From contig MNVE01000002.1 of the NCBI GenBank assembly GCA_001871475.1, positions 62,001 to 126,000 on the forward strand: a stretch of 64,000 nucleotides of DNA, in the 5' to 3' direction. The stretch is from Candidatus Micrarchaeota archaeon CG1_02_47_40 (lineage in GTDB: Archaea; Micrarchaeota; Micrarchaeia; Anstonellales; CG1-02-47-40). Shown piece by piece: positions 4,963 to 49,886 of this stretch; the stretch's first letter is position 1; each line of letters begins with the position of its first letter. The notes beneath the pieces were generated by a model that was not told the DNA's origin, ran no database searches, and was given only the letters and a program-made list of their open reading frames with translations. The translations under genes and the position numbers were made by a program.

Positions 4963-5042
4963 TATCAAAATGCTCGCAAATATGGGCGAGTGCCCCTTGC
5001 TCAACCGCCGCCTTGCGGGCGGTGAGCGCGAGCATTTTGATA
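4963..5042 (-). promoter_or_regulatory. 15-bp inverted repeat enclosing two hairpins (leader element)
   Basis: TATCAAAATGCTCGC (4963-4977) and its exact complement (5028-5042) form a 15-bp stem. Inside are a GGGC/GCCC mini-hairpin (about 4984-4995) and a longer hairpin whose core is CCGCCGC-CTT-GCGG(G)CGG (about 4998-5027, with flanking GCTC/GAGC). This is a three-way junction. A TATA-like stretch (minus strand TTTAAATATTATAT, about 5075-5090) would start transcription near 5060, so the element would be in the roughly 150-nt 5' leader of the membrane-protein gene. Leader placement is inference. Confidence 0.5.
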
Positions 5043-5141
5043 CCTCTCTTACTCCCACTTAATTTAACCCGATATAATATTTAAACCTATCGTATTTAAT
5101 GGGGCTTTATGAATTCTAACCCCTTTTTGCGCCTTATCAAC

Positions 5142-5261
5142 TTTCACTAACAAGATTCACTTATTTAAGGCGATAGTTTTCCTTTACCTTGCCAATTTTC
5201 ACTAACAAGATTCACTTATTTAAGGCGAATTTCTCCCTTTAATCTCACTTATTCAAGGTGA
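5142..5261. repeat. Tandem repeats copied from 3' end of the HEAT/OB gene
   Basis: Two identical 32-bp units lie at 5142-5173 and 5197-5228 (period 55 bp). A third, diverged, partial unit at about 5246-5268 is the last codons and stop of the gene ending at 5245. Read on the minus strand, each unit resembles GGGAnAAATnnnCCTTnAATAAGTGA, where TGA is the stop codon in the genic copy. Confidence 0.75.
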
Positions 5262-6426
5262 TTTTTCCCTTGGGGGCAACAAAAAGAGCCGCTTCCCCCG
5301 TATCTCCAATTCCATCAACGTAAGCCCCCTGCACCGCCACCCTGTCCCCAACTGCAATGCCCCTTCCCCTGCCCTGGGGCAAACACAGGGGGAATTTTCC
5401 GGTCTGGTCAAGAAGCGTTATTTTGAGCGCATCAGTGCTTTTCTTTCCCTTTCTTATCTCAATCTTTTCCACTTCGCCAACGGTGACTTCTGGGAGCCTT
5501 ATCTTTTTCATCCCGATTTTCAGCGAGGCAAGCCTCTGCACTCCCATCCCCCTGCACTGCAGTTTTGCAAGCCTAAAAGCCATCTCCACCTTGTGCGACA
5601 GTTCCTTTGCAACATTCTTCTCCTCATCAGACAGCATTTTGTCGGTTGCGCCTTCCCTTGAGGCAAGCGAATACGCCCTCCCGTAAATCTCCTCAAAAAA
5701 AGGGTCGCCGGAAACAACGCTTTTTTCCTCCTCTTCCCCAGACACAAGCGAAGCATCTTCTTCAGCAGTTTCTGCAATTTCTCTTCTTTCTTTCGTGCAT
5801 ACTGAAGGCGCCGACTCTCCTTCCTTACTATCTGCCTCGCGTTTTGCCTCTTCCTTGCCCTCCTCATAACTTCCAATGCTCTCAATCTCGCCTTCCTCTT
5901 TGGCAGGCTCTGCCAGCCCCTCCTTGTCTTTTGCAGAAATATACTCCCCTATCTTCTCAACGCGGCGCATCACTTCAAAGTGCTCGCCTATTCTCGTCTG
6001 CCCCTCCTCCCTGCTTACCGCCACAAGCTCCTCATTATGCTTCTTTCTCTTTGAGAAGTACTTTTCAAGCGTGCTCATCATTCTCTGCTTTGTCTTCTTT
6101 GCGGTAAACATCTTTTCAATGGAAGGGAAAAGCTTCACCTTCACGTCATTCTCCGTTTCAACGTGTTCGCTCTCGCTTTGCAGGAACAGCTTTTCAATTG
6201 AGAGCATATCTGTCTTTTCCGTGCTTCTGAGCCTTTCAAGCGCCTCCTGCGCCTTTCCCTTTACATCCACATCCTTGTCGCCCGATAGCTCAAGGAGCGC
6301 AAAAATCGCGCCGGGGTCGTTCCCAAGTGCGGAAATTTCAGCAACCACTCTCATTCTTACCTTGGAGTCGGCGCTGTAGGACTCGGCTATTAAGGCATCA
6401 ACCCGCTTTTGCTTTTCAGAAGTCAT
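5245..6426 (-). CDS. HEAT-like / OB-fold hypothetical protein
   Basis: 393 residues from the ATG at 6426. The frame is open further upstream, but that extension would run through the divergent pantoate kinase promoter and coding region, so this start is preferred. Residues 1-70 are short helical repeats of HEAT type (ADSKVRMRVVAEISALGN). The middle is Glu/Lys-rich and probably flexible. About 310-385 looks like an OB-fold nucleic-acid-binding domain (PEVTVGEVEKIEIRKGKK, then GIAVGDRVAVQGAYVDG). This suggests a single-stranded nucleic-acid-binding or complex-scaffold role, by inference. Its 3' end is duplicated twice downstream. Function unknown. Confidence 0.65.
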   Translation of the reverse strand: MTSEKQKRVDALIAESYSADSKVRMRVVAEISALGNDPGAIFALLELSGDKDVDVKGKAQEALERLRSTEKTDMLSIEKLFLQSESEHVETENDVKVKLFPSIEKMFTAKKTKQRMMSTLEKYFSKRKKHNEELVAVSREEGQTRIGEHFEVMRRVEKIGEYISAKDKEGLAEPAKEEGEIESIGSYEEGKEEAKREADSKEGESAPSVCTKERREIAETAEEDASLVSGEEEEKSVVSGDPFFEEIYGRAYSLASREGATDKMLSDEEKNVAKELSHKVEMAFRLAKLQCRGMGVQRLASLKIGMKKIRLPEVTVGEVEKIEIRKGKKSTDALKITLLDQTGKFPLCLPQGRGRGIAVGDRVAVQGAYVDGIGDTGEAALFVAPKGKITLNK

Positions 6427-6460
6427 TTTTCCTCTCTCCCGTTCCTTCCTGCTCCGATTA

Positions 6461-6469
6461 AATATATAA
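6461..6469 (+). promoter_or_regulatory. TATA box for pantoate kinase
   Basis: The sequence aatatataa is centred about 29 bp upstream of the ATG at 6494, the spacing expected for a leaderless archaeal transcript. It argues against the in-frame ATG at 6470, which lies inside or at the edge of the box. Confidence 0.65.
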
Positions 6470-6493
6470 ATGGTGCGGGGGCAGATTCCCCTT

Positions 6494-7333
6494 ATGGCCG
6501 CTTCTGCATTCTCCCCCTCGCACTTAACCGGCTTCTTCTCCCTTTCAGCCAAAGGCTCATCAGGCGCGGGCATAACGCTGGATAAGGGAGTAAAGACAAC
6601 TGCAGAGTTTGCCGCAAAAGGCGCAAAGAAGGACCGCATTGCCATAAACGGAAACATTTCATCCGCGCCAGTTTCAACATACATTGCAGGCGAATACCGC
6701 AGACTGACGGGCACAAACCGCTTTTTTCGCATATCGCACTCCTCTTTTTTCCCGGTAGGGTATGGCTTTGGCACAAGCGCAAGCGGTGCACTTTCCCTTT
6801 CTTTATCTCTCAATAAATTGCTGGGAACAAAATTTCCCTACAAAAAATGCGTCAAAATTGCCGCCAAAGCCGACTTGGAATGCGGCTGCGGCGTAAGCGG
6901 AGTTCTTGCCTCCAGCATTGGCGGCTTTCTTTTTAGGAAAACGCCAACTTCAAAAGTGATTAAGCTTCCCTTGCCTAATAGTGCTTTTTTTCTATGCGTT
7001 CCCCTCTCTCCCATCCCAACAAAAAACATCATAACCAGCAAAGGGCAGGTGCGCAGAATAACAAAAGCGGGGAGTGAATGCAATGCTTCGTTTGCTTCCA
7101 GCCCTTCCCTCTCCAACTTCTGCCTGCTTTCAAACGAGTTTGCCATAAAAACAAAAATCGCCCCGCCTTCCACTCTTTCCATCCTCAAAAACAATCCCGA
7201 TTTCGGGATGGCGCAGCTTGGCAATACTCTCTTTGCAATAGCGGAAAGCAGGAAAGAATTTGAAGGGAAAAAGAAAAGGATGAGCGAATATGGGGGAGTG
7301 CTTACAGCTGGCTTGAGCGGAAAAGGTGCTTAA
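6494..7333 (+). CDS. Pantoate kinase (GHMP family)
   Basis: Phosphorylates pantoate to 4-phosphopantoate in the archaeal coenzyme A route, used with phosphopantothenate synthetase instead of bacterial PanC/PanK. The N-terminus AFSPSHLTGFF matches the archaeal pantoate kinase signature (FSPxHITGFF). The GHMP ATP-binding motif PVGYGFGTSASGALS is at about residue 87-101. Length (279 aa) fits the family. The start was chosen from the TATA spacing. The gene is divergent from the HEAT/OB protein with only about 67 bp between start codons. Identification rests on the N-terminal and GHMP motifs; other GHMP kinases lack the SPxHxTGFF signature. Confidence 0.85.
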   Translation: MAASAFSPSHLTGFFSLSAKGSSGAGITLDKGVKTTAEFAAKGAKKDRIAINGNISSAPVSTYIAGEYRRLTGTNRFFRISHSSFFPVGYGFGTSASGALSLSLSLNKLLGTKFPYKKCVKIAAKADLECGCGVSGVLASSIGGFLFRKTPTSKVIKLPLPNSAFFLCVPLSPIPTKNIITSKGQVRRITKAGSECNASFASSPSLSNFCLLSNEFAIKTKIAPPSTLSILKNNPDFGMAQLGNTLFAIAESRKEFEGKKKRMSEYGGVLTAGLSGKGA

Positions 7334-7711
7334 CTATTCCACCCTAATCGGATAGCTGCTTTTCCACAATCCGTGCAGGTTGCACCTTATAACCGCGCTT
7401 ATCTCCTTTCCGGCAGAGAGTATCACGCTTATTTTTGCCTTCGGCTCCGTCACCACGGGAGTAAAATTCACCCTCGTAAAATAAAGCCCATCCACAAACA
7501 AATCAACAAACTGTATGAAGTGTGCATTCTGCATGGGGTGAGGCATGCTTCCCACTTTCACTCCCAATTCAAATGCCTCTCCTTTTTTCACTTTTGCGGG
7601 AAATTCCAGCACAGGAGTGTGCTTCTTCTCCAAATCATCCATATTATTCTTGTCTTTAGGCTCATTTATCTTCCAGAAAAGCTCCGCAATTATTCCCTTG
7701 TCTTCTGCCAT
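7334..7711 (-). CDS. Superoxide reductase (neelaredoxin type)
   Basis: Reduces superoxide to hydrogen peroxide at a mononuclear Fe(His)4Cys centre in the cytoplasm. All five ligands are visible (numbering from the ATG at 7711): His31 in KKHTPVLE, His58 and His64 in MPHPMQNAHF, and Cys110 and His113 in the signature RCNLHGLW. No desulforedoxin domain is present, so it is the one-iron class. The position usually held by the sixth-ligand Glu (EKH in Pyrococcus) is Lys here (KKH). An alternative start lies 3 codons upstream. Convergent with pantoate kinase with no gap. Ferredoxin and a flavin reductase elsewhere in the window could supply electrons. Confidence 0.93.
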   Translation of the reverse strand: MAEDKGIIAELFWKINEPKDKNNMDDLEKKHTPVLEFPAKVKKGEAFELGVKVGSMPHPMQNAHFIQFVDLFVDGLYFTRVNFTPVVTEPKAKISVILSAGKEISAVIRCNLHGLWKSSYPIRVE

Positions 7712-7774
7712 TCTCACCACCTCAATAAAACACTCACGGGATATTTATAATTCTTCTTTGGGGAAATCAACACC

Positions 7775-8401
7775 ATGCAAAAAACCAAAATCAGCAGAAT
7801 TCTTGCCATTCTTTCGCGTGCCTATCCTGAAGCAGGCATCTCCCTTTCCTTTGAAAATCCATTTCAGCTTCTCATTTCCACCATCCTCTCCGCACAATGC
7901 ACTGACAAAAGAGTAAATTTAATCACTCCCGCCCTTTTTGCAAAATATAAAAATGCAAAGGATTTTGCAAATGCAAAACAAAGCGAACTTGAAAAACACA
8001 TTCATTCAACGGGATTTTACAGGAATAAAGCGAAGAATATAATAAACTGCTGCAAAATGCTCGTTGCGCACTACTGGGGAAAAGTTCCTCTTTCTATGCA
8101 GGAACTCGTTTGCCTTCCCGGAGTCGGAAGGAAAACTGCAAACATAGTGCTCTCAAATTCCGGAATTATAGAAGGAATTGCAGTTGATACCCATGTCGCA
8201 AGGGTAAGCAGACTGCTGGGTTGGACAAAAAGCAAAAACCCGCTCATCATTGAGCGCGACCTCATGCGGCTCTTCTCAAAAAGCGACTGGCATCTTATAA
8301 ACGCCCTTCTTGTCTGGCACGGAAGAAGAGTATGCGTCGCAAGAAAGCCGAAGTGCGGAATGTGCCTCCTTAAAAACTTGTGCCCGAGCGCGGGGAGATA
8401 A
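7775..8401 (+). CDS. nth: Endonuclease III (DNA glycosylase/AP lyase)
   Basis: Base-excision repair enzyme removing oxidised pyrimidines. The helix-hairpin-helix LPGVGRKTANIVL carries catalytic Lys120, and VDTHVAR carries Asp138. The C-terminal [4Fe-4S] loop has the canonical spacing Cys187-x6-Cys194-x2-Cys197-x5-Cys203. 208 aa is the usual family length. A TATA-like atatttataa about 28 bp upstream supports the ATG at 7775 with a leaderless message. The last 19 coding bases recur at 9772-9790, beyond the neighbouring ATPase gene, which indicates an insertion or duplication at this 3' end. Confidence 0.95.
   Translation: MQKTKISRILAILSRAYPEAGISLSFENPFQLLISTILSAQCTDKRVNLITPALFAKYKNAKDFANAKQSELEKHIHSTGFYRNKAKNIINCCKMLVAHYWGKVPLSMQELVCLPGVGRKTANIVLSNSGIIEGIAVDTHVARVSRLLGWTKSKNPLIIERDLMRLFSKSDWHLINALLVWHGRRVCVARKPKCGMCLLKNLCPSAGR
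8379..8397 (+). repeat. 19-bp direct repeat, copy 1 (nth 3' end)
   Basis: tgtgcccgagcgcggggag forms the last codons of nth. The identical 19 bases are found at 9772-9790, and the two copies flank the DUF4143 ATPase gene. Confidence 0.9.
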
Positions 8402-8402
8402 C

Positions 8403-8434
8403 TCATTATATTTTAGTATAATAAAATATAATGA
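8403..8434. promoter_or_regulatory. 13-bp perfect palindrome between nth and ATPase
   Basis: TCATTATATTTTA (8403-8415) and its exact complement (8422-8434) surround a 6-nt loop. It begins right after the nth stop codon and sits about 20-25 bp upstream of the ATPase TATA box (about 8459-8467). It could be a transcription end structure for nth or an operator for the ATPase gene. Confidence 0.6.
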
Positions 8435-8487
8435 CACTTATTTTTTATTATAATAAAATTTATATACCTTTGCATCTAAACATCTTC

Positions 8488-9765
8488 ATGGTGCCAAAGG
8501 AACTCCTGCACACGGTCGTCCTCGACCAACTTGCAGAGTGCAAACTCGCAGCCATGACTGTAAAAAGGGAGATGTTGGAACGAATCGCGGTTAAAACTAC
8601 GGCGCGCGCCCTCATAATAAAGGGCGTACGCAGATGTGGCAAAAGCACCGCCTTAAAGCAGTTGATGGCGGAAAGATTCAAAGGAAAATTCTTTTATCTG
8701 AATTTTGACGATGAGCGCCTTATTGGTTTTGAAGCAGACGATTTTCAAAAATTAATGGAAGTGTTCATAGAACTCTTCGGAAACCGCCCAGCAATATTTC
8801 TCGACGAGATACAGAATGTGCGGGGATGGGAATTGTTTGTCAACCGGCTTCTTAGGGAAGGGCGCAATGTTTTCATAACCGGCTCAAATGCGAACCTCTT
8901 AAGCCGCGAACTTGGCACCCACCTGACAGGCAGGCATCTTGATTACGAACTTTATCCATTCTCTTTCAGTGAGTATCTTGCACTAAGGGGGGTTGATTTG
9001 CCAAGGCAGGCAGCCTCAACCAGCCAAAAGACGCTTTTGCTGAAAGAATTCAAAAAATACATGGAAGAGGGAGGGATGCCGGAGGCGGCAATAAGCCGCA
9101 ACCCGGCAGTTCTCGGACAGACTATAGAAGACATTGTGCAAAAAGATATAATTCGCAGGTATTCAGTAAGAAAGCCCAACGAATTAAGGGGTGTTTTGAG
9201 ATTTTTGATAGCAAACGCTTCAAATAAAATAACATTCAACAGCATATGCGACAATTTCAGGATAAAAAGCCCCGTTACTGCACAAAATTATGTGAATTAT
9301 GCCGAGGATACATGCCTTATTTTTACGGTCAGAAAGTATGAAAGAAAAATAAAACTTCTTGACAAAAACCCGAAAAAGCTTTATTGCATTGACAACGGAA
9401 TAATTGCAAGGCATTCTTCCGGAGCGATACAGCAGATGGGTGCGCTCCTTGAGAATCTCGTTGCGGTTGAACTTAAAAGACGAAACTGTTTCTTTTATTA
9501 TTACATGAATAAAAACGGCTCGGAAACCGATTTTGCGATTCTTGCAGAAGAAACCCCAAAAAAAATAACGCAGGTTTTGCAGGCGTGTCTAGACCCATCG
9601 GACGTGCTTACTATGCAGAGAGAGGAAAAAGCTCTGCTTTCAACCCTTAACGAAACCGGTCTTTCAGAAGGTCTTGTGGTTACCCTTGATTTTGAAGAAA
9701 CAAAAAAGAAGGAAGGCAAGGCCATACGCTACGTGCCCGCCTGGAAATGGCTTCTTGAAGGATGA
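8488..9765 (+). CDS. AAA-type ATPase with C-terminal DUF4143
   Basis: 426 residues from the ATG at 8488; a TATA box (tttatatac, about 8459-8467) lies 21-29 bp upstream, so the longer frame from 8431 is rejected. Visible motifs are Walker A GVRRCGKSTAL, Walker B AIFLDEIQNV, and FITGSNANLLSRE just after. The C-terminal half is DUF4143, with the nuclease-like segment YYYMNKNGSETDFAI near residue 350. This family is widespread in archaea, is often mobile or patchily distributed, and its substrate is generally unknown. The gene is bracketed by a 19-bp direct repeat of the nth 3' end, so it appears to have been inserted. Confidence 0.9.
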   Translation: MVPKELLHTVVLDQLAECKLAAMTVKREMLERIAVKTTARALIIKGVRRCGKSTALKQLMAERFKGKFFYLNFDDERLIGFEADDFQKLMEVFIELFGNRPAIFLDEIQNVRGWELFVNRLLREGRNVFITGSNANLLSRELGTHLTGRHLDYELYPFSFSEYLALRGVDLPRQAASTSQKTLLLKEFKKYMEEGGMPEAAISRNPAVLGQTIEDIVQKDIIRRYSVRKPNELRGVLRFLIANASNKITFNSICDNFRIKSPVTAQNYVNYAEDTCLIFTVRKYERKIKLLDKNPKKLYCIDNGIIARHSSGAIQQMGALLENLVAVELKRRNCFFYYYMNKNGSETDFAILAEETPKKITQVLQACLDPSDVLTMQREEKALLSTLNETGLSEGLVVTLDFEETKKKEGKAIRYVPAWKWLLEG

Positions 9766-9771
9766 ATAAGC

Positions 9772-9790
9772 TGTGCCCGAGCGCGGGGAG
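9772..9790 (+). repeat. 19-bp direct repeat, copy 2 (duplicated nth 3' end)
   Basis: Identical to 8379-8397. It is followed by ctaa, so the copy still resembles a Gly-Ser-stop ending. It lies 7 bp after the ATPase stop codon. Confidence 0.9.
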
Positions 9791-9811
9791 CTAATCTTCT
9801 ATTTTTCTTCC

Positions 9812-10084
9812 TTAGCGCTTTCCCTTCCTTTTTTCATTCCCTTTCAGTGTTTTCTTCTCTCTCTTTTCTTCCCTTCCCAATTCCCCTTCAGCAACCGTAA
9901 GCAGCATCTGCACATCTTTCAGAGTTTTCCTTACATTCTCCAAATCTTTTTTGCTCCCCTTATGCGCCAATTCGTGCGCAAGTGAAGTTACATCCTGAAG
10001 CAGTTTTTCCGTTTTCTTGTCAAGGGAATCAATGCCCCTCATTTTTTCCTTTATCTCTATAAGCCGCTTCTTAATGTCTTTCAT
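9812..10084 (-). CDS. Small coiled-coil hypothetical protein
   Basis: 90 residues from the ATG at 10084, which is preceded by a GTGATG ribosome site; an upstream in-frame extension runs into the hairpin cluster and is not favoured. Residues 1-65 are a Lys/Glu/Leu heptad-like coiled coil, followed by a basic tail (REEKREKKTLKGNEKRKGKR). No known family is recognised. The basic tail suggests nucleic acid contact, by inference only. It is convergent with the DUF4143 ATPase and lies next to four consecutive hairpins. Confidence 0.6.
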   Translation of the reverse strand: MKDIKKRLIEIKEKMRGIDSLDKKTEKLLQDVTSLAHELAHKGSKKDLENVRKTLKDVQMLLTVAEGELGREEKREKKTLKGNEKRKGKR

Positions 10085-10117
10085 AATCATCACTTTCAAA
10101 CCCAATTCTTTTATCTG

Positions 10118-10216
10118 TTTGCCCTGTGGGCAAAACATTTGAAACGCAAGGCGTTTCAAAATTTTGAAAGTTCTTTGGAACTTTCAAATCTAAAAAAGTC
10201 CGATGCGGACTTTTTT
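10118..10216. repeat. Four consecutive perfect hairpins
   Basis: Within 99 bp: TTTGCCC-TGT-GGGCAAA (10118-10134); TTTGAAACGC-AAG-GCGTTTCAAA (10138-10160); TTTGAAAGTTC-TTTG-GAACTTTCAAA (10163-10188); AAAAAAGTCCG-ATG-CGGACTTTTTT (10192-10216). Stems are 7-11 bp and perfect, loops are 3-4 nt, and stem sequences differ. The last hairpin ends in six T on either strand and could terminate transcription of the gene at 10246-11415. Confidence 0.85.
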
Positions 10217-10245
10217 ATCCCTTTGCCTTTTCCTGCAGTTTCTTT

Positions 10246-11415
10246 CTACCAGCCATAACTTTCCGCTCTTGAATATCCAAGGGAACGCGCAACTGAAAAT
10301 ATATCCTTAGAGAAGAGCTGCGGCGCTTTCATTGCCATCCTCATTCCGGCTGCCATCTTGTCAAGTGCCCCCATTTCTGCAAGCCGCTTCGGCAGTGCAT
10401 TTCCAAATGCATTCAGCTCCGCATTTGTCAGATTATAAAGCGCCTTCTTCCCTTTCATAATCACTTCATATTTTGGGAAATCCGCCTTCCAAAGCTTCTC
10501 ATAGTTTGAAAAAAATTCCTCCCCTCTCTCACCGTACTGCACTGCCTTTGCCGCAACGCGCGCGGCATGCCCCCCAGACGCTATTGAGAGGTGCGTCCCT
10601 CCCTCAAAAAGCGGGCTGGTAAAGCCTGCCGCATCCCCTATTAACATAAATCCCGCCCCATAAGTTTTTGGCAGGGGGCCTGAAGCAGGTATAAGCCCCC
10701 CGAAAGTCTTATTCACCTTCTTTCCCTCCAGCCCCATCTTCTTCACATATTCATCAAGCAATACTTTCGCCCTGCTTTTTTCATTCGTCACCATGCCCAC
10801 ATTCGCCCTGTTCCCCCCCTTCGGTATCACCCAGAAATATCCGTGCGGAAATGCCTGCACATCAAGGTAAAAATCAACATACCCCTGTGTGGTCACCTCT
10901 TTCATCTCATACTGCATCCCGATTACGGTCTCATACCTTGCCCCAAGCTTCAAAAAAGATGACAAAAACGCCTGCGAGCCGGAAGCGTCAATGAGTATGC
11001 GGCAGGTGTATTTCTCCTTATTTGTCTGCACAAGCCAAACATCCCCCCTCGTAACTCCCTCAACCTTCTCCCCAAGCAAAATCTCTGCGCCTTCCTTTTC
11101 CGCCTGCTCCGCCAGGTGCGCCTCAAAGCGGTTTTTTTCAAGTACATAACCCGGCTCATCAAGAAACGTTTCCTTTCCCGAGGGAAACACAACGCGAATT
11201 CCCTTCACTTTCTGCGATATTGTCTCAAGCGGCAGGTTCAGGGAATACTTTTCCTCGCATAATTTTGAGAGGCACTCCCCGCAGTGCACAGGCTCCCCTA
11301 CCTTTTCATTCTCCTCAAAGAGTATTACGGAAAGCCCTTCTCCTGCAGCGCATTTTGCGCAGCGCAAGCCGGCTGGCCCCCCTCCTATAATCGCCACATC
11401 ATAAAGGTCTTGCAC
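10246..11415 (-). CDS. Geranylgeranyl reductase family flavoprotein (paralogue 1)
   Basis: FAD-dependent enzyme expected to saturate the isoprenoid chains of archaeal membrane lipids. The N-terminal Rossmann motif YDVAIIGGGPAG binds FAD. The GEPVHCGECLS segment at about residue 40-50 matches the Cys-containing motif of archaeal geranylgeranyl reductases. A second FAD motif, GAGFMLIGDAAGFTSPLFEGG, is at about 262-282. Length (389 aa) is typical. A second family member lies at 12631-13875, so the two may act on different substrates (for example lipid versus quinone or polyprenol). The exact substrate cannot be read from sequence. Confidence 0.9.
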   Translation of the reverse strand: MQDLYDVAIIGGGPAGLRCAKCAAGEGLSVILFEENEKVGEPVHCGECLSKLCEEKYSLNLPLETISQKVKGIRVVFPSGKETFLDEPGYVLEKNRFEAHLAEQAEKEGAEILLGEKVEGVTRGDVWLVQTNKEKYTCRILIDASGSQAFLSSFLKLGARYETVIGMQYEMKEVTTQGYVDFYLDVQAFPHGYFWVIPKGGNRANVGMVTNEKSRAKVLLDEYVKKMGLEGKKVNKTFGGLIPASGPLPKTYGAGFMLIGDAAGFTSPLFEGGTHLSIASGGHAARVAAKAVQYGERGEEFFSNYEKLWKADFPKYEVIMKGKKALYNLTNAELNAFGNALPKRLAEMGALDKMAAGMRMAMKAPQLFSKDIFSVARSLGYSRAESYGW

Positions 11416-11501
11416 TTTTTCATCCCCCCAAAACTACTTAATATAAATATAAATCAATATAAAAGTGTTTTCAAAGAACGCATAATAAGGGAGTGATGCT
11501 G

Positions 11502-12260: not shown

Positions 12261-12264
12261 TTAT

Positions 12265-12474: not shown

Positions 12475-12520
12475 TAAAATCACCGTCATAAAGAAAGAAG
12501 ATTAGATTTTAAAGCCTTTC

Positions 12521-12648
12521 TAACGCTTTCGAGGGAAGGGCTAATCAGCACTTTAGCTGAAAAGTTTTCGAGGGAAGGATTAACGCGCATTTTAGCCGAA
12601 CAGTTTCCGAGGGAAGGATTAACGCGCGCTTCAGCTGAAAATCAGCTT
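12521..12648. repeat. 39-bp tandem repeat, three units, reaching into a gene 3' end
   Basis: The core gagggaagg recurs at 12531, 12570 and 12609, an exact 39-bp period. On the minus strand each unit reads (T)TTCAGCTgAAgnGCncgTTAatCCTTCCCTCg. The first unit contains the last sense codons and stop (TTC AGC TGA) of the gene ending at 12631; the other two lie downstream. Confidence 0.85.
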
Positions 12649-13875: not shown

Positions 13876-13984
13876 TTTACTCCCTTCCCAAAATAGCTTT
13901 TCAAGCCCCCTTATTTGAAATACAAAATATAAAAAAGCGATAGGTATATAAAGGAGGAACGCTCACAATAATAATAGTGGTTTT

Positions 13985-14344: not shown

Positions 14345-14350
14345 AGCGCC

Positions 14351-41391: not shown

Positions 41392-41413
41392 TAAACCATC
41401 TTAAACGTTCCAT

Positions 41414-41665: not shown

Positions 41666-41748
41666 ATAATTTACCTCCCTTGAATATTCTAAAACGCGGA
41701 ATTGATTTTTCTCATGCTTAATATTCCAGAGAAAATATATAAACAAAA

Positions 41749-41896: not shown

Positions 41897-41954
41897 GACT
41901 GCATATCTTTTTGCCCATAAAACCTTAATAAACAATTAACCTCTATTATTTCCT

Positions 41955-43775
41955 ATGCAAACCCTGCTTGAGAACGAAATAGCGAAGCTGATTGCGGATG
42001 CCACAGGTTTATCGGCAGAGGAAATACTTCCCACTCTTGAAATACCGAAAAACAACCTCGGCGAGCTTGCCTCCACCTGCCCCTTCGTGCTTGCTAAAAG
42101 AGAGAAGAGAAATCCTTTGCAGATAGCGCAGGAAATCGCCTCCAAACTCCCAAAACACAAATGGGTGCAAAAAGCGCAGGCGACCGGACCTTACATAAAT
42201 TTCTTCCTCTCCGAAGAATTCTACTCCGACGCGCTCTCGCACATCTTAAAGGAAGGGAAAAAATACGGGAAAGGAAAAAAGCAAAAGGGAAAAACAATAG
42301 TTGAATTCCCTTCAGTGAATCCCAACAAGCCCTGGCACATAGGGCATTTGCGAAATGCGATTTTAGGGGACTGCATTGCGCGCCTTCTTTCCTTTTCAGG
42401 CAAGGAAGTAGAGGTGGAAGATTACATAGATGATTTGGGTTTGCAGGTGGCTGAAAGCTTATGGGGCTATCTGAAGAATGCGAATGCCGGAAAAGAAAAA
42501 TTCGACCACTTTCTCGGAAAGGAATATGTGGAAGTGGAAAAGAAAATGCAGGACGAGACAGTAAAAACAGAAGTAAGAAAACTGCTGAAGGAAATGGAGG
42601 AAGGGAAGGGAGAAATTGCAAAAAAGCACGACGAAATGGTGCAAAACTGCATCCGCGCTCAATACGAAACAGCTTTCAAATTAAAAATCTACCACGATGT
42701 CCTGGTGCGCGAATCGGAAATAATGGGCACAATATACGGGGAGGGAATGGAACTTCTCTCAAAAAGCAAAAAAATAGTGCATGAGACGGAAGGGAAGAAC
42801 GCAAACTGCCTTGTGGCGCGGATGGAAGGGGACGAGTTCAAAAATTTAGAAAATCCCGACATGATATTGGTGCGTAGCGACGGCACAGCCACCTACACCG
42901 GCAAAGACGTGATTTTTCATCTCTGGAAATTCGGAAAATTAAAGGGAAAATTCAAGTATTCAAAATTTCTAACACAGCCAAACGGCAGCGACTGCCATAT
43001 CACCTCCGCAGAAGGCAAATCCCTTCCCTTTGGAAAAACGTCCTCCTGCATAAACATAATAGGGGTTGAGCAGTCCTACCAGCAGAGCGTTGTGAAAGAA
43101 ATACTGCGCATTCTTGGATATGAAAAAGAAGCATCTTCCCTCCACCACCTTGCATACGAGCACGCCGCCCTTCCCGAAGGAAAATTTTCAGGGAGAGCAG
43201 GCACCTGGATTGGTTATACTGCCGATGAATTGATTGAAGAGGGAGTAAAAAGAGCAAGCGAGAAAGCAGGGAAGGAGCTGGGTGAAGAGGAAAAGAAGGC
43301 AATCGCAAATGAGGTTGCAATAGGCGCGATACGCTTCTCCTTCGCCTCGCAGTCTCCCGAGAAAAAAATAATATTTGACTGGGACAGGGCGCTTTCTCTG
43401 GAAGGGGATTCCGCACCATATTTACAATATGCATACGCGCGCATGAGCGGGATAATACAAAAGGCAGGGGGGTTGAAGATGAAGAAAGGGAAGGCCGACT
43501 ACCCCTTCAGCGAAAATGAAAAATCACTCCTCCGCATTCTTTCCCGCTTTCCCAAAACCCTCTCCCATGCCGTGCACGACTTGAGGCCCCACATCCTCTG
43601 CGACTACTCTCTTGAGCTTGCCTCCTCCTTCAACAAATTCTACAATACCTCTTCCATACTGAAAGCGGAGAGCATTGAGGCAAAACAAGCGCGGGTGCGT
43701 ATTCTTCTCGCATCAAAAAACTGCCTTGAAAACGCGCTTTTGCTGCTTGGAATAACTCCGCTTGAAAAAATGTAA
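41955..43775 (+). CDS. argS: Arginyl-tRNA synthetase
   Basis: Class I synthetase charging tRNA-Arg, 606 residues. FPSVNPNKPWHIGHLRNAILGD (about 116-137) holds the HIGH motif. The KMSKS counterpart is replaced by GKFSGRAGTWIGYTADELI, as in other ArgRS that lack a canonical Lys there. The N-terminal Add-1 domain (1-85) and C-terminal helical anticodon-binding domain (about 480-606, ALSLEGDSAPYLQYAYARMSG) are present. It ends 2 bp before the 3' end of the convergent tRNA-Arg gene, its own substrate, which is a notable neighbour. Confidence 0.96.
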   Translation: MQTLLENEIAKLIADATGLSAEEILPTLEIPKNNLGELASTCPFVLAKREKRNPLQIAQEIASKLPKHKWVQKAQATGPYINFFLSEEFYSDALSHILKEGKKYGKGKKQKGKTIVEFPSVNPNKPWHIGHLRNAILGDCIARLLSFSGKEVEVEDYIDDLGLQVAESLWGYLKNANAGKEKFDHFLGKEYVEVEKKMQDETVKTEVRKLLKEMEEGKGEIAKKHDEMVQNCIRAQYETAFKLKIYHDVLVRESEIMGTIYGEGMELLSKSKKIVHETEGKNANCLVARMEGDEFKNLENPDMILVRSDGTATYTGKDVIFHLWKFGKLKGKFKYSKFLTQPNGSDCHITSAEGKSLPFGKTSSCINIIGVEQSYQQSVVKEILRILGYEKEASSLHHLAYEHAALPEGKFSGRAGTWIGYTADELIEEGVKRASEKAGKELGEEEKKAIANEVAIGAIRFSFASQSPEKKIIFDWDRALSLEGDSAPYLQYAYARMSGIIQKAGGLKMKKGKADYPFSENEKSLLRILSRFPKTLSHAVHDLRPHILCDYSLELASSFNKFYNTSSILKAESIEAKQARVRILLASKNCLENALLLLGITPLEKM

Positions 43776-43794
43776 AACGGGCCCGGCGAGATTT

Positions 43795-43914
43795 GTTCGG
43801 TCTTCAGCCCCTACCTTTCTTCAGGGGGGTGAAGCCCTTCGCAAATGCTTGCATTTGCGAGACTTGACGCGAAGCGTCAAGCGGATAGGGGGGTGAAACC
43901 CCCCATATGGGATT
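43795..43914 (-). other. 120-nt T-loop intron of tRNA-Arg, hairpin-rich
   Basis: The exact ends are ambiguous by 2 nt because of repeated A. It contains TCGCAAATG-CTTG-CATTTGCGA (43839-43860), CTTGACGC-GAA-GCGTCAAG (43863-43881) and GGGGGG-TGAAA-CCCCCC (43888-43904); CCCCTA (about 43809-43814) and TAGGGG (43886-43891) could form an enclosing stem. Confidence 0.65.
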
Positions 43915-43941
43915 GAACTCGCGGCCTACAGCTTAGAAGGC

Positions 43942-43972
43942 TTGCGGAAATAATGCCGTTTGGAATTATTCT
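43942..43972 (-). other. 31-nt anticodon-stem intron of tRNA-Arg (29/30)
   Basis: Removal is needed to form the anticodon stem. The intron has a self-complementary core (AATAAT/ATTATT), which could give the helix of a bulge-helix-bulge splice motif. CAAG is repeated at both edges. Confidence 0.6.
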
Positions 43973-44109
43973 TGCCGCTCTATCCAGGCTGAGCTACGGG
44001 CCCGCAGTTTTGTTTATGCATCTGAAGGGTTTAATAATTAATTGCAGTGCGGTTTTTCCTGTTTCGAACATGCACTTCTTTTAAAAATCTTCCCGGAGTT
44101 TCCATACAC

Positions 44110-44544
44110 ATGCGCAAGGAAGTTCTTTACCCGATTTTCGCGCTTGCAATAATGGTGACGTGTGCAATCGTCGCCTACCATTTCCTTGAGGGCTGGGACT
44201 GGCTTACCTCTGCTTTTTTTGCGACTGCGACAATCACAACGGTAGGATACGGGGACGTGGTTCCCCATACGTTCTATGGAAAAATTTTCACAATCGGCTT
44301 CATGCTTGCGGGCGTTTCAACAGGTTTTTATGTCCTTATTCAGCTTTCACAATATTCAAGGGTGGTGTTTGAGAGGCGCTTTGAAAACATTTTTCAGGGG
44401 GTTGACAGCCGCCTTGACGCGATACGTTATTTTCACGCAAGAAACATAAGCTCTCTCCAGTCCGCAAGAAAAAGGCACAACGTTTCCCTTGAACAGGGAA
44501 AATACGAAAAAGTCAGCGTAAGCGGAAGAAAGAAGAAGCGCTAA
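44110..44544 (+). CDS. Two-helix potassium channel
   Basis: 144 residues from the ATG at 44110; a TATA-like tttaaaaat about 24-32 bp upstream supports a leaderless start. Two membrane helices (about 6-23 and 56-78) flank the pore loop with selectivity filter TITTVGYGD (about 41-49). The C-terminal 60 residues are basic (RRFENIFQGVDSRLDAIRYFH, GRKKKR) and lack an RCK domain. It is a minimal KcsA-like K+ channel subunit, expected to tetramerise. The gene is convergent with enolase, overlapping it by 4 bp. Confidence 0.9.
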   Translation: MRKEVLYPIFALAIMVTCAIVAYHFLEGWDWLTSAFFATATITTVGYGDVVPHTFYGKIFTIGFMLAGVSTGFYVLIQLSQYSRVVFERRFENIFQGVDSRLDAIRYFHARNISSLQSARKRHNVSLEQGKYEKVSVSGRKKKR

Positions 44545-45782
44545 CCCTTTCCGAACCTTGCCATTGCCCCAAGCTCCTCCTCTATTCTTAATAATTGATT
44601 ATACTTGCAGGTGCGCTCCCCCCTGCTTAAAGAGCCCGTCTTTATCTGCCCCGCATCAATCCCCACTGCAAAATCCGCAATGAAAGCATCCTCGGTTTCC
44701 CCGGAGCGGTGCGATACAATCACCCCCCAGCCGGCTTTCTTTGCAATATCTGCCGCCTCTATCGCCTCGCTCACGGTTCCCACCTGATTTACCTTGAGAA
44801 GGAGCGCATTTGCCAATTTCTTCCTTGTTGCTTCCTTCACTTTTGCTGGGTTTGAAACAAGCAAATCATCCCCAACTATCTGTATCTTCTTTCCCATCCT
44901 CCTGGTCATCTCCGCAAACGATTTCTCATCCCCTTCCTCAAACGGGTCCTCAATGCTGATTATTTGATGCTCTCTTGCAATCCCTTCATAATACTCAAGC
45001 AAACCATCTGCACTCATTTTCTTTCCATCAATCGCATACCTTCCTTTCGCAAAAAAAGAGCTTGCCGCGCAGTCAAGCGCCAGCTTCACTTCCTTTTCAT
45101 AGCCGCATTCTTCAATCGCTTTTCCAATCGTCCCAAGCGCCTCCTCCGTCCTCTTCATCTGCGGCGCATAACCCCCCTCATCCCCGACATTTCTTGCGCT
45201 CTTTCCGTATTTTTTTTCAAGGATGCCGCCAAGTTCGTGATACACTTCACTTCCCATCCTCAAAGCTTCGCTAAAATTTTTCGCCCCTTTGGGCACAATC
45301 ATAAATTCCTGCACTGCCAGAGCATTCCCGGCGTGCTTTCCTCCGTTTATTATATTCATCATCGGTACGGGCAGCAACCCCCCGTCAAAATATTCATAAA
45401 GAGGCATTCCTCTGCACAGCGCGCCCAATTTCGCGCACGCCATAGAAGTTGCGGTTACTGCGTTGCCTCCCAAATTCCCTTTATTCTCTGTTCCATCAAG
45501 CTCAATCATCGCCGCATCTATCCCCTCAAGCCTTTCCGCATCCATCCCAATAATTGCCTTAGCAATTTCTCCATTCACATTTGCAGCAGCGTTCAATACT
45601 CCCTTTCCGCCATACCTCTTTCCCCCATCCCTCAATTCAATTGCCTCATTCTTTCCAGTAGAAGCTCCAGAAGGAGCGGCCGCTCTTCCCATAAGCTTTC
45701 CCGCCCATGCCTCAACCTCTACAGTGGGGTTTCCCCTTGAATCCAAAATCTCCCTTGCAAGCACCTTGGTTATTTTTGCCAT
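44541..45782 (-). CDS. eno: Enolase
   Basis: Converts 2-phosphoglycerate to phosphoenolpyruvate. 413 residues with the enolase set: N-terminal REILDSRGNPTVEVE, GAAAPSGASTGKNEA loop, metal ligands in KLALDCAASSFF, SIEDPFEEGDEKSF and QIVGDDLLVSN, catalytic Lys in LLLKVNQVGTVSEAIEA, and SHRSGETEDAFIADFAVG. Normal length for archaea. It complements gpmA at 20057 in lower glycolysis. Confidence 0.97.
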   Translation of the reverse strand: MAKITKVLAREILDSRGNPTVEVEAWAGKLMGRAAAPSGASTGKNEAIELRDGGKRYGGKGVLNAAANVNGEIAKAIIGMDAERLEGIDAAMIELDGTENKGNLGGNAVTATSMACAKLGALCRGMPLYEYFDGGLLPVPMMNIINGGKHAGNALAVQEFMIVPKGAKNFSEALRMGSEVYHELGGILEKKYGKSARNVGDEGGYAPQMKRTEEALGTIGKAIEECGYEKEVKLALDCAASSFFAKGRYAIDGKKMSADGLLEYYEGIAREHQIISIEDPFEEGDEKSFAEMTRRMGKKIQIVGDDLLVSNPAKVKEATRKKLANALLLKVNQVGTVSEAIEAADIAKKAGWGVIVSHRSGETEDAFIADFAVGIDAGQIKTGSLSRGERTCKYNQLLRIEEELGAMARFGKG

Positions 45783-45839
45783 TGAGCATTTTCTATCCTG
45801 CCAACGCTAATAAATATTTAGGCTTGCAAATTCTCCCAT

Positions 45840-46841
45840 ATGAAATCAAAAAAGCCCAATTATTCAGTAAAGATGCTTCCAGCGCTGCGCGAAATTGAGC
45901 GGGCAAAGAACGGGCGCAAATGCCACAAATGCGAAAAGAAACCGGCAGTTTTCCTTTCTCATTCCCAGCTTTATTTCTGCAAAAATCATTTCCTTGAATA
46001 TTTTGAGCGCACCTTCATGCGCACCGTGCGGGATTTTTCCCTGATAAAAAAGGGCGAGCACATACTAATCGGGCTTTCAGGCGGGAAGGACAGCACCGCC
46101 CTTCTTTACTGCCTCTCCTCCCTGAAAAAATCCCTCCCCTTCAAATTAACCGCATTTATAATTGATGTCGGAGTGCCCGGATACTGCACCAATTCCCTCA
46201 AATGCGCGCGCGCCTCCTGCCAAAAGCTTTCCATCCCGCTGAAAATAGTTTCCTTCAAGGAGGAAACGGGAAAAACTCTTCTCGAATTCATAAAAGGAAG
46301 GGAGGAGGACTCCTGCTCCTTCTGCGGGGTAATCCGAAGGCACATAATGAACCGGCAGGCAAAGCTTCTGAAAGCCGATAAAATAGCAGTCGCGCACAAT
46401 CTGGATGATTTTGCCCAGACCACGCTGATGAATATAATGCGCAACGAGCCTGCGCGCTTGGCGCGCTTCGGCCTGATGAGCGGAATAGTGGATGATTGCG
46501 GCTTCGTTTCCCGCATAAAGCCCTTTGCGCGCCTAAGCGAAGTAGAAACCTCCATTTATGCAATCTTCAAGAATTTTTCCTATAATCCTGAAAGCTGCCC
46601 ATACTCAAAGAATGCTTTCCGCCAGATTGTGCGAAAAACGCTCAATGAAATAGAGGAGAAATATCCGGGCACGAAAAAGAGGATATTTGCGGGCTGCCTC
46701 GTGGTGCAGAAGGCATTGCAGGAAAAATATTCAAAGCAGGGGCTGAAAATATGCAAATGCAAGCACTGCAGCGAGCCTTCTGCGCACGAGAAATGCAAGT
46801 TCTGCGAGATGACGGAAAGCTCCCCGGCTTTCAATCTATGA
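45840..46841 (+). CDS. TtuA/Ncs6-like tRNA 2-thiolation enzyme
   Basis: 333 residues. N-terminal zinc site (CHKCEKKPAVF, then CKNH), ATP pyrophosphatase loop GLSGGKDSTALLYCL (about 79-93), catalytic and Fe-S Cys in PGYCTNSLKCARASC and CSFCGVIRRHIMN, and a C-terminal zinc cluster ICKCKHCSEPSAHEKCKFC. This is the COG0037 TtuA/Ctu1 architecture that thiolates U34 or U54 of tRNA. It should depend on sulfur from the cysteine desulfurases at 58-62 kb. A TATA-like aataaatattta is about 20-30 bp upstream. Confidence 0.9.
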   Translation: MKSKKPNYSVKMLPALREIERAKNGRKCHKCEKKPAVFLSHSQLYFCKNHFLEYFERTFMRTVRDFSLIKKGEHILIGLSGGKDSTALLYCLSSLKKSLPFKLTAFIIDVGVPGYCTNSLKCARASCQKLSIPLKIVSFKEETGKTLLEFIKGREEDSCSFCGVIRRHIMNRQAKLLKADKIAVAHNLDDFAQTTLMNIMRNEPARLARFGLMSGIVDDCGFVSRIKPFARLSEVETSIYAIFKNFSYNPESCPYSKNAFRQIVRKTLNEIEEKYPGTKKRIFAGCLVVQKALQEKYSKQGLKICKCKHCSEPSAHEKCKFCEMTESSPAFNL

Positions 46842-47394
46842 AAGGAATGATTGCGCGCGCAATTTTTGTTAAAATGCGCGTTCTTCTCTTCCAGAAACTC
46901 TTTCTGTAATTCATGTATCCGTTGTTTTTATTAGGGCGCTTTTCCCTCTCTTCAAGCGCCTTTCTCAACGCATTCATAATTTCAGGCGGCTCATTCTCCT
47001 TTTCCAGCGCATCCTTCAGCTTTCCAATCAGCGCATTTTTTGCCCTCTCCCTTCCAATTTTTCCAAGCGCCTTTACTGCCTTCAGCCGAATATCGGCAAT
47101 CTTATCATCCATCGCCTTAATCAGAATATCTGCCGCATCCTCGCTTCCAATCGCTCCAAGCGCCCAGATAATTTCCTCGCATCCGCATCCACTCATCCTC
47201 ATTCTAAATTCCAGCATGCGGGCAAGTTCAAAAACTATCCTTCCCTCCCCATTTCCATGAAGCTCTCTCTTAGCAATCCTTGCAAGCTCTCTTGCCGCAA
47301 AAAGCCTTTCAATGCTATCCTCGTTTTGCATTTTCCTTAAATTCTCTTGCACAAGCCGGTTATAACGTTCAGCAGAAGTCTCAAACTCATCCAT
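46831..47394 (-). CDS. HEAT-repeat protein
   Basis: 187 residues from the ATG at 47394; an in-frame ATG lies 5 codons upstream. Helical repeats dominate residues 25-145, for example EDAADILIKAMDDKIADIRLKAVKALGKIG, typical of HEAT/PBS-lyase-like repeats. The C-terminal 40 residues are basic (KSFWKRRTRILTKIARA). Probably a protein-interaction scaffold. Its 3' end overlaps the convergent TtuA-like gene by 11 bp. Confidence 0.75.
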   Translation of the reverse strand: MDEFETSAERYNRLVQENLRKMQNEDSIERLFAARELARIAKRELHGNGEGRIVFELARMLEFRMRMSGCGCEEIIWALGAIGSEDAADILIKAMDDKIADIRLKAVKALGKIGRERAKNALIGKLKDALEKENEPPEIMNALRKALEEREKRPNKNNGYMNYRKSFWKRRTRILTKIARAIIPFID

Positions 47395-47463
47395 AAACAG
47401 CACACCCAATTCAAATATGTTATAAACTATGATAAAGATTGTTTTTAAATCTGCCCCTCAAAA

Positions 47464-47475
47464 GGTTTATTATAA
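47464..47475 (+). promoter_or_regulatory. Probable TATA box for mcm
   Basis: ggtttattataac is AT-rich and oriented for mcm. Transcription would start near 47495-47500, leaving a 5' leader of about 100 nt that contains the hairpin element at 47502-47589. Confidence 0.4.
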
Positions 47476-47501
47476 CTAAAGGGGGAATAAAGTGCGGGAG
47501 A

Positions 47502-47589
47502 TTTGACCTTCTGCTTGCCCTTCGGGCAAGTCTTGACGGCTTCGCCGTCAATCGGTCAAAAACCCCCATTTTGGCAAGCAAAATGTGGG
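47502..47589 (+). promoter_or_regulatory. Three-way-junction leader plus hairpin over the mcm ribosome site
   Basis: Outer stem TTTGACC (47502-47508)/GGTCAAA (47554-47560) encloses CTTGCCC-TTC-GGGCAAG (47514-47530) and TTGACGGC-TTC-GCCGTCAA (47533-47551). A further hairpin, CCCCCATTTTG/CAAAATGTGGG with loop GCAAG (47563-47589), pairs the GGG part of the gtgggagg ribosome site 11 bp before the mcm ATG. Confidence 0.6.
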
Positions 47590-47599
47590 AGGCTAATTT

Positions 47600-49684
47600 A
47601 TGGCGGCAAAGAAAGAGACAGACGAGGGGCTCAAAAATGAGTTTGAGCAGTTCTTCTCCTTCATAATGCAAAAGGAAGTAAGCAAGCTTGTTCTCTCCTA
47701 CCCCGCGCAGAAAAGCCTCGTGGTTTCCTACCCCCTTCTTGAAAAATTCAACTCCGACCTTGCGGACGCGCTTGTTAAAAACCCTGACGAACTCATTGAG
47801 GCTGCCGAAGAAGCCCTAATAGACATGAACGTTTCCATGCCCGGCTCCCAGTTCGAGCCCCACGTGCGCTTCTGCGACCTTCCGAATAAGGAGCTTCTCG
47901 TGCAGGACATAGGCTCAAGGCACATAGAAAAGCTGATTGCGGTAAAGGGGGTAATCACAAAAAGAACGGAAATAATGCACAAGGTGCGAATCGCCCTTTA
48001 CAAGTGCCTGATGTGCGATGCCGCATTCAAAATACCCATGACAAAGAAGGCGCAGCCCCCGCAGATATGCGAATCCTGCAAAAGGCGCGCGCTAAAGCTT
48101 GTGGAGGAAGACTCTTACTTTGTTGACATACAAAAGGCGGAAATGCAGGATTTGCTTGAGCGGATAACCGGAGGCGCGCCAAGCGCCCGCGTTTCCCTTT
48201 TTCTTGAGGATGATTTGGTGAATACGCTCACACCGGGCGATAATGTAGAAATAAGCGCGGTAATGAGGATAATGCCGATGCTCCCCTCAAAGGGAAAGCC
48301 CGCATCGCGCTCACAAACCTATGTAAAATACCTTGACGTTCTGCATATTGCAAAAACGCAGAAGGATTTTGAGGAGCTTGAAATCAGCGGGGAGGACGAG
48401 CAGAGAATAAGGGAGCTTTCGCGCGACCCGAGGCTTTACACCCGCCTCATAAAATCCCTCGCTCCCGCGATTTACGGGCATGATGAAGTGAAGGAGGGAA
48501 TATTGCTGCAGCTTTTCGGGGGCACGAAAAACAAGGTGATGGCTGGCGGGGGGAAAATAAGGGACGATATGCACATTCTACTAATAGGAGACCCGGGCGC
48601 CGCCAAAACCCGCTTTTTGCAGAACGTTGATATGCTTGCGCCAAAAAGCATCTACGTTTCAGGAAAATCCGCATCAGGAGTTGGCTTGACCGCTTCGGCA
48701 GAGCGCGATGAACTGGGGGAAGGGGGCTGGACCCTGAAGGCAGGCGCGCTTGTGCTTGCGTCAGGCGGGATGTGCGCCATAGACGAGTTTGACAAGATGG
48801 AAGAGTCGGAGCGCGCCACGATGCACGAGGTGATGGAATCCCAAACCATCAGCATAGCAAAGGCGGGAATGGTCGCAAAATTCAAGGCGAAAACCGCCAT
48901 TCTCGCTGCCGCAAACCCCAAAATGGGCCGCTTTGACCTGACTAAGATGCTTGGGGAGCAGTTTGATATCCCCCCTACTCTTCTCTCCCGCTTTGATTTG
49001 GTGTTTCCCATACTTGATGTCATGGATGAGGACAAAGACACAAAGCTTGCGCACCACATACTCACAATGCACAAGCGCGCGGCGCAGATTGAGAAGGGAA
49101 CAGGCGACGAGCAGGCTGAAGCTGCGGACCCTGATTTGCTTGAGCCGAAATTCATAAGAAAATACATCGCGCTTGCAAGAAGGGAAATCCGCCCGGTTCT
49201 AACCAGCGAGGCGGAGTCAAAATTGCAGGACTATTACGTGCAGATGCGGAATCAGGGAAGAAGGGCAGGAGGAGGAGCGGTCCCAATTACTCCCCGCCAG
49301 ATTGAAGGATTGATAAGGATGAGCGAGGCATCGGCAAAAATACGGCTTTCAAACACCGTTGACAATGAGGATGCCGACCGCGCCATAAAATTAATGACCT
49401 GGGTTCTTGAGAAGATGTATGTGGATAGGGAAACGGGCAAGATAGACATAGACACGATTGCCACCGGGATGCCAAAATCAAAGCGCGACAAGTTTGAGTC
49501 TCTAATGAATATTATAAGGGGCTTGCAGAAGGAATACGATGTAATAGAAATAAACAAGATAGTGGAAGAGGCAAAGAATTACAACATGGACGAGGTGTTC
49601 GTGCGCAGGACGGTTGATGATCTGGTGTATAAGGGGGAGTTGTACAGGAAGGGGCATGGGTTTGTGAAGATGGTTAATCCGTAA
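47600..49684 (+). CDS. mcm: Replicative helicase MCM
   Basis: 694 residues. N-terminal domain with zinc site (CLMCDAAF ... CESCKRR, about 135-175) and OB-fold; AAA+ domain with Walker A GDPGAAKTRFLQ (about 332-343), Walker B MCAIDEFDKM, sensor 1 ILAAANPKMG, and arginine finger LLSRFDLVF; C-terminal winged helix (IIRGLQKEYDVIEINKIVEEA). Normal archaeal length. It unwinds DNA ahead of polymerase D. Hairpin-rich elements flank it on both sides (47502-47589 and 49686-49853). Confidence 0.97.
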   Translation: MAAKKETDEGLKNEFEQFFSFIMQKEVSKLVLSYPAQKSLVVSYPLLEKFNSDLADALVKNPDELIEAAEEALIDMNVSMPGSQFEPHVRFCDLPNKELLVQDIGSRHIEKLIAVKGVITKRTEIMHKVRIALYKCLMCDAAFKIPMTKKAQPPQICESCKRRALKLVEEDSYFVDIQKAEMQDLLERITGGAPSARVSLFLEDDLVNTLTPGDNVEISAVMRIMPMLPSKGKPASRSQTYVKYLDVLHIAKTQKDFEELEISGEDEQRIRELSRDPRLYTRLIKSLAPAIYGHDEVKEGILLQLFGGTKNKVMAGGGKIRDDMHILLIGDPGAAKTRFLQNVDMLAPKSIYVSGKSASGVGLTASAERDELGEGGWTLKAGALVLASGGMCAIDEFDKMEESERATMHEVMESQTISIAKAGMVAKFKAKTAILAAANPKMGRFDLTKMLGEQFDIPPTLLSRFDLVFPILDVMDEDKDTKLAHHILTMHKRAAQIEKGTGDEQAEAADPDLLEPKFIRKYIALARREIRPVLTSEAESKLQDYYVQMRNQGRRAGGGAVPITPRQIEGLIRMSEASAKIRLSNTVDNEDADRAIKLMTWVLEKMYVDRETGKIDIDTIATGMPKSKRDKFESLMNIIRGLQKEYDVIEINKIVEEAKNYNMDEVFVRRTVDDLVYKGELYRKGHGFVKMVNP

Positions 49685-49685
49685 G

Positions 49686-49886
49686 AAACCTACGGTTTGA
49701 GTGTGCTTCGCACACTGCCCGACAACTGCGTTGTCGATTTCTCAAACACCGTGAGAGCAGTCAAACACCGTGAAAGCAGGCAGGATGAGATTCGTATTTA
49801 CTCTGCTTGCACGGTGTTGATGAGAATTGCACCTACTCTGCTCGCACGGTGTTCACCCACTTCCCTTTTAATTAGCCCTACGGTTT
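49686..49886. repeat. Composite inverted-repeat element downstream of mcm
   Basis: A 10-bp direct repeat cctacggttt is at 49689-49698 and 49877-49886. Between them: outer stem GTTTGAG (49695-49701)/CTCAAAC (49741-49747) around AGTGTGC-TTC-GCACACT (49700-49716) and CGACAAC-TGC-GTTGTCG (49720-49736); two direct copies of caaacaccgtgaNagcag (49743-49760, 49762-49779); and two inverted copies ctgctNgcacggtgtt (49803-49818, 49838-49853). No gene is seen. Confidence 0.8.

Follow-up and report, generated by a model that had tools for sequence, protein, structure and literature searches.

Known hairpin elements and the archaeal unit

Short hairpin repeats that keep their form while their sequence changes are a long-known feature of mitochondria, for which a mechanism has been lacking. 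They include the double-hairpin elements of Allomyces and the repetitive hairpin-forming elements of sponges, and flank duplications have been reported lacking for the Allomyces elements (PMC2800124). In Rickettsia, palindromic elements of about 150 bp, which fall into conserved sequence families, insert in frame into unrelated genes (PMC10969869). Here we analysed tandem short-loop hairpins in a 64,000-nucleotide stretch (the window) of Candidatus Micrarchaeota archaeon CG1_02_47_40, whose genome is called the host genome in the following, and we conclude, with a probability of roughly 0.7, that most of these hairpins are copies of a Micrarchaeota element that is mobile, non-autonomous and built as a double hairpin. 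The element appears to represent a family of miniature mobile hairpins that has not been described before. A literature search found no earlier description of palindromic repeats in Micrarchaeota, although the novelty is provisional because most subscription papers lay outside the reach of the search.

Like the mitochondrial elements, the archaeal unit consists of adjacent short hairpins that are dispersed, have variable stems and are patchily present between close relatives, and in both cases mobility is deduced (PMC2800124). Unlike them, it resides on Micrarchaeota chromosome contigs and not in organelle DNA, it carries GA/CNGA feet and a conserved stem base, and it is inserted in tRNA introns and, in frame, in genes; in contrast to what has been reported for the Allomyces elements, a subset of its loci also shows a flank-derived outer stem and a direct repeat. 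It resembles the Rickettsia elements in being palindromic and in its in-frame insertion into unrelated genes, whereas its units are only 45-60 bp long, have compensatorily variable stems and for the most part lie outside genes or within tRNA introns. The archaeal unit belongs to neither family, whether organism, sequence or unit length is considered.

Tandem hairpins far exceed chance in the host genome

The earlier note on this stretch had reported tandem hairpins at five places (sites 1 to 5, Table 1) and proposed a dispersed family of them, and all five are present where it placed them. We scanned the whole host genome (1,154,623 bp, 16 contigs, numbered C1 and so on) for hairpins with perfect arms and loops of 3-5 nt, using local dinucleotide shuffles as the control. 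Arms of at least 7 bp gave 457 perfect hairpins versus 261 in the shuffles, arms of at least 8 bp gave 204 versus 68, and tandem clusters (arms of at least 7 bp) numbered 55 versus 0-3. A shuffle-level frequency, or a lack of clustering beyond the window, had been named as grounds for giving up the family; as the counts lie far above the shuffles and the clustering is genome-wide, the family stands, with members in leaders, 3' flanks and a tRNA intron. The excess stems from intergenic DNA, where the first 813 kb contain 122 hairpins with arms of at least 7 bp versus 17 expected, while coding DNA is close to expectation (213 versus 194). The nearest relative, G001 of the same family, has no excess of clusters (2 versus 1 in shuffles of 400 kb), whereas G220 from another family has 11 versus 0-1 in 398 kb, and hairpin clustering is accordingly not general to such genomes.

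A unit with conserved joints and covarying stems

Most clusters with recognisable relatives share a unit of about 45-60 bp, 5'-hairpin X-(GANA)GA-hairpin A-CNGA-3', in which the base of hairpin A reads YTTG...CAAR. Listing all hairpins with their flanks revealed the motif of hairpin A on one strand as GA-(YTTGnnn loop nnnCAAR)-CNGA, and 36 hairpins with arms of at least 7 bp carry GA/CNGA feet in the host genome, compared with 0-4 in shuffles. Read on the motif strand, most of its loops are GAA, GCA, AAA or another purine-rich sequence of three or four nucleotides, and therefore the orientation of the unit is kept. When matches were picked by feet and stem base only, so that pairing itself was not selected, the interior proved fully complementary in 33 of the 35 host-genome matches. 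Viral carriage was rejected, since just 2 of 61 similar matches in viral contigs were paired, which is about chance level. A perfect hairpin X ends directly 5' of A in 26 of 39 units (5% expected), and the repeated unit thus comprises two adjacent hairpins, as in the mitochondrial double-hairpin elements. The linker between X and A is GA in most units and GANAGA in five, all of them inside open reading frames (ORFs). Tandem arrays of 47-67 bp units also occur.

For eight relatives of site 4, an alignment was built on a three-way junction made up of an outer stem, A and X. In this alignment 93.4% of the cells pair and 11 pairs are changed on both sides; double-change cells amount to 24, compared with a shuffle value of 7.9 +/- 2.0 (0/500), and the signal is lost when the partners are slid. 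Compensatory variation was found in all three stems. The unit is hereby shown to be a definable family with covarying stems. The claim that the hairpins share shape and not sequence consequently needs amendment: the inner stem pairs do vary, but the joints and the stem base are conserved. Likewise, the stems were said to be unrelated between sites, which may apply to site 1, without a homologue in the 813 kb searched, but not to sites 2, 3, 4 and 5, which have diverged homologues in the host genome.

These features bear directly on an explanation that does without any element, in which template switching at replication forks makes and keeps perfect short inverted duplications anywhere, at a high rate in this lineage. 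Template switching is able to create and maintain perfect short-loop stems (PMC8794818), the archaeal units resemble its hairpins in their perfect stems, loops of 3-4 nt and compensatory change (PMC8794818), and the order D - D' - D at about a dozen loci, described below, resembles an inverted triplication. Being blind to sequence, however, it does not predict feet and stem base pairs that are conserved at unlinked loci in two families, nor oriented loops, nor the homology of whole multi-hairpin units. As the sole cause it is refuted by these observations, so that this origin, one of two readings offered in the earlier note, which taken alone predicts neither feet, stem base and oriented loop nor recurrence in another family, is not upheld, and we regard a genome without any element as improbable. 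Template switching is nonetheless a plausible route to stem turnover, with no explanation of the conserved feet.

Alternatively, the units might be functional structured RNAs (a regulatory leader, a kink-turn-like L7Ae site or a processing signal) whose pairing is under selection. The strong stem covariation speaks for this, as do the GA/CNGA internal loop, which resembles tandem G:A pairs after a bulge, and the unit that the L7Ae gene itself carries in its tail, given that archaeal L7Ae controls its own mRNA (PMC5539422, PMC6298567). Tandem G:A opposite A:G beside a bulge could indeed form between the two helices as in a kink-turn, but the bulge of the archaeal unit (CN) has 2 nt and not the usual 3 (PMC6298567), and the kink-turn was rejected on this length. 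Moreover, the units are placed in leaders, 3' flanks, introns and ORFs in both strands with no consistent context, they are near-absent from the nearest relative, tandem hairpins like those of site 4 were not found in the MCM leader of 19 relatives, and an Rfam search of the window gave no match. A conserved MCM leader RNA was rejected on that absence, the terminator reading was dropped because units also sit in introns and ORFs, and a hammerhead-like reading of the joints was dropped, as no cleavage-site arrangement was seen. Stem covariation alone is no proof of functional RNA, and we consider selection for an RNA function an unlikely reason for these hairpins.

Patchy occurrence and filled and bare sites

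The pattern GAYTTG N(9-13) CAARCNGA was searched in 245 genomes of the phylum with the backward pattern as control, which usually gave 0-2 matches per genome. The host genome has 35 matches, G112 17, G119 15, G037 and G161 8 each, and G001 a single one; several other genomes have 3-6 and many have none. In a second family of the order there are up to 17 matches per genome, with identical feet and different stems. Outside the two families the GA/CNGA feet are near-absent, and even in one genus presence is patchy, ranging from 0 to 8 matches per genome within genus g17; G022, G155 and G211, which share their genus with G134, are element-free. Such patchiness between close relatives is also a mark of the mitochondrial double-hairpin elements.

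Repetitive extragenic palindromic (REP) elements are hairpins with conserved feet. The archaeal units resemble REP sequences and bacterial interspersed mosaic elements in being short intergenic hairpins, often paired, with a conserved foot, and they could be REP-like elements or miniature inverted-repeat transposable elements (MITEs) moved by the Y1 transposase (IS200 type or REP-associated tyrosine transposase type) of this genome, a fragment of which is found at contig ends. Nevertheless, the foot differs from that of REP elements, the stems are not conserved in the family, and there is no association with Y1: the ends of the Y1 element are different (CTGCGCCC-TTTA-GGGCGCAG), the element-rich genomes G119, G037, G134, G153, G007 and G107 (incomplete as they are) have no Y1 match, and the element-free G028 has one. 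Since it does not track the element, the Y1 transposase was rejected as mobiliser, and mobilisation by it appears very unlikely. An IS200-like Y1 transposase gene is represented by its 3' end, with a terminal hairpin, at the starts of C10, C15 and C5 and at the end of C13, and therefore a multicopy insertion sequence broke the assembly there.

Within a genus, the unit is shown to be present or absent at one orthologous site. In the 3' flank of the signal recognition particle (SRP) RNA of genus g17, it is present in G134, G220, G167 and G037 (at least two copies), a related form occurs in G150, and the site is bare in G189, G157, G031, G158 and G106.

Filled and bare copies of a tRNA T-loop intron also coexist in the host genome. 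ARAGORN found no tRNA in the intact window because of introns, whereas it recognises about a dozen tRNAs of the genome, including tRNA-Arg(TCT) of the window, once the T-loop intron is removed in silico, although two of the spliced cases look doubtful. Their removal is thus predicted to leave functional tRNAs, as expected of archaeal tRNA introns. In alignment A1, the intron core is bare in tRNA-Thr, tRNA-His and tRNA-Arg(CCG), at least one hairpin of the unit stands at the same place in tRNA-Arg(TCT) and in four other tRNA introns, and the tRNA-Ser intron holds other extra hairpins. Transposed archaeal tRNA introns are related introns found in several different tRNA genes. The related introns of the host genome likewise occur in different tRNA genes; unlike transposed introns elsewhere, they are landing places for a second, smaller element. 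T-loop introns were observed in about a dozen tRNA genes on C1, C6, C9, C10, C11, C14 and C15; many share a CCCATATGGGGGG core, a second intron is often present, and standard ARAGORN misses these genes.

As with the Rickettsia palindromic elements, units are also inserted in frame in genes. The unit at C5:34726-34765 lies in frame in a P-type ATPase and encodes IEQSKGLRKTCPKGKQ, opposite which the solved magnesium-transporting ATPase has a gap of 15 residues, and the unit at C13:3497-3536 lies inside a 21-residue insert of an AAA_14/DUF4143 ATPase relative to its G220 homologue. The C-terminal tails of L7Ae and L31e contain units as well. In the L7Ae gene (C15:117863-118555), a long C-terminal tail with four hairpins of the element family was noted. 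The element thereby shows both growth of archaeal tRNA introns and gain of short protein inserts.

Flank anatomy and a possible mode of spread

The sequence following CNGA, here called D, was compared with the upstream flank in 83 hits. A direct upstream repeat of D (alignment score of at least 12) was detected in 20 of them, with 1.0 expected, and an inverted copy of at least 6 bp forming an outer stem directly before GA was found in 27, with 1.5 expected. About a dozen loci read D - S - D' - GA - A - CNGA - D; D is repeated directly on both sides and inverted inside, and therefore X was built from the target there. Clear cases are L167/L173, L166, L176, L179 and, in the host genome, the arrays at the C15/C7 and C10/C1 ends, and several such loci are situated where a tRNA gene or SRP RNA ends. 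In genus g17, S looks alike between loci by eye. Flanking duplication, typical for MITEs and reported lacking in Allomyces, is seen at a minority of loci, about a dozen, and at others none is visible.

We infer that the element spreads as a folded single strand, an intermediate with feet and a hairpin that would be recognised in trans, and that D' arises from fold-back copying of the target at insertion. With every X templated by its own target, and with one arm open to later correction against its partner, the stems would then turn over. Put together, this would be a distinct class of mobile archaeal hairpin that rebuilds itself from each target, with a small conserved cap (GA-hairpin-CNGA) and an outer hairpin made by fold-back copying; what is left behind would be an inverted triplication, D - D' - D, in many cases where a tRNA or SRP RNA gene ends. 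This fuller scheme is offered tentatively, as one possibility.

Several points weigh against a mobile element. The 83 flank hits include orthologues, repeated fetches and tandem copies, which inflate the counts, so that only about a dozen loci are independent; many units have no clear flanking duplication, and none is visible around those in tRNA introns. None of the individual gains was given a direction by a tree. No mobilising enzyme was identified either, as neither the Y1 transposase nor reverse transcriptase tracks the element: the latter is present in the element-rich G119, G112, G161, G037 and G153, absent from the host genome, G134 and G220, and was rejected as mobiliser. The conserved feet of the unit, the filled and bare sites, the protein inserts and, at about a dozen loci, the flank-derived stem make the insertion mechanism directly testable between close strains.

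The five sites and other repeats of the host genome

Table 1. Hairpin sites of the window, their surrounding genes, and copies of two further repeat families (window positions unless a contig is given)
Feature	Position	Strand	Description
Site 1	4963..5042	.	outer stem of at least 13 bp around two hairpins; fold energy z = -3.4
Site 2	10114..10217	-	long form, extra hairpins between X and A
Site 3 host gene	43779..44003	-	tRNA-Arg(TCT) with anticodon-stem intron and T-loop intron
T-loop intron of tRNA-Arg(TCT)	43792..43911	-	120 nt; core common to other tRNA introns of the genome
Site 3 unit in T-loop intron	43839..43885	+	X 43839-43860, GA, A 43863-43881, CGGA 43882-43885
Site 4	47502..47560	-	three-way-junction form; outer stem 47502-47508/47554-47560
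Third hairpin of site 4	47567..47585	.	CATTTTG...CAAAATG; adjoins MCM start codon
MCM helicase gene	47600..49684	+	leader holds site 4
Site 5, first part	49687..49737	-	variant double hairpin; joints GGC/CAA, not GA/CNGA
Site 5, second part	49764..49853	.	different palindrome family, AACACCGTGnnAGCAG ... CTGCTnnCACGGTGTT, and its partial repeat
Second palindrome family, copies	window 49764-49853; C4:95226, 95506; C15:1844, 164971; C11:149365, 178608, 225790, 270626; C13:13970		
Third family, copies	C11:60047-60191; C9:91115-91260; end of C3		C9 copy in frame in TrpE-like gene

Sites 2, 3 and 4, which have conserved joints in common, clearly belong to the family. On the minus strand, site 2 runs from an X hairpin (10191-10217) through GA, an extra hairpin (10163-10188), AT, another extra hairpin (10138-10160) and TGT to the A hairpin (10118-10134) and CAGA (10114-10117), and it has homologues of 85-92% identity at C11:33767, 33884, 17228 and 261463 and at C15:55119. 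Hairpin A of site 3 is CTTGACGC-GAA-GCGTCAAG. Site 4 comprises, again on the minus strand, the X hairpin (47533-47551), GA, the A hairpin (47514-47530) and CAGA (47510-47513); its relative at C11:30657-30759 (86%) also contains the third hairpin.

The five sites are heterogeneous, and the single family envisaged for them has to be narrowed. Site 5 holds a variant unit plus another, unrelated palindrome repeat; its first part reads (CGACAAC..GTTGTCG)-GGGC-(AGTGTGC-GAA-GCACACT)-CAAA on the minus strand and has one 97% copy at C11:104-163. Site 1, in the probable leader of a minus-strand ORF (2956-5058), lacks the GA/CNGA unit and a second copy in the 813 kb searched, and it stays unclassified as an isolated structure. 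Outer stems enclosing two hairpins, also claimed earlier, were confirmed at 4963 and at site 4, whereas 49695 clearly shows no more than AAACC-TAC-GGTTT, which is a short local hairpin, plus two hairpins.

The second dispersed palindrome family, about 55 bp long, has about ten copies, some of which lie by eye in tRNA-intron-like sequence. Members of a third family have two long stems, TTTGCAACGAG... and TTTGAAAATCG..., and both stems carry an inner hairpin and a GGTATCCGC motif. Tandem repeats in the window comprise 1.9 copies of 55 bp at 5138-5241 and 2.9 copies of 39 bp at 12527-12641. At C11:108344-108436, a tRNA-intron-like element is flanked on both sides by the last ~80 bp of a protein gene, in two diverged copies.

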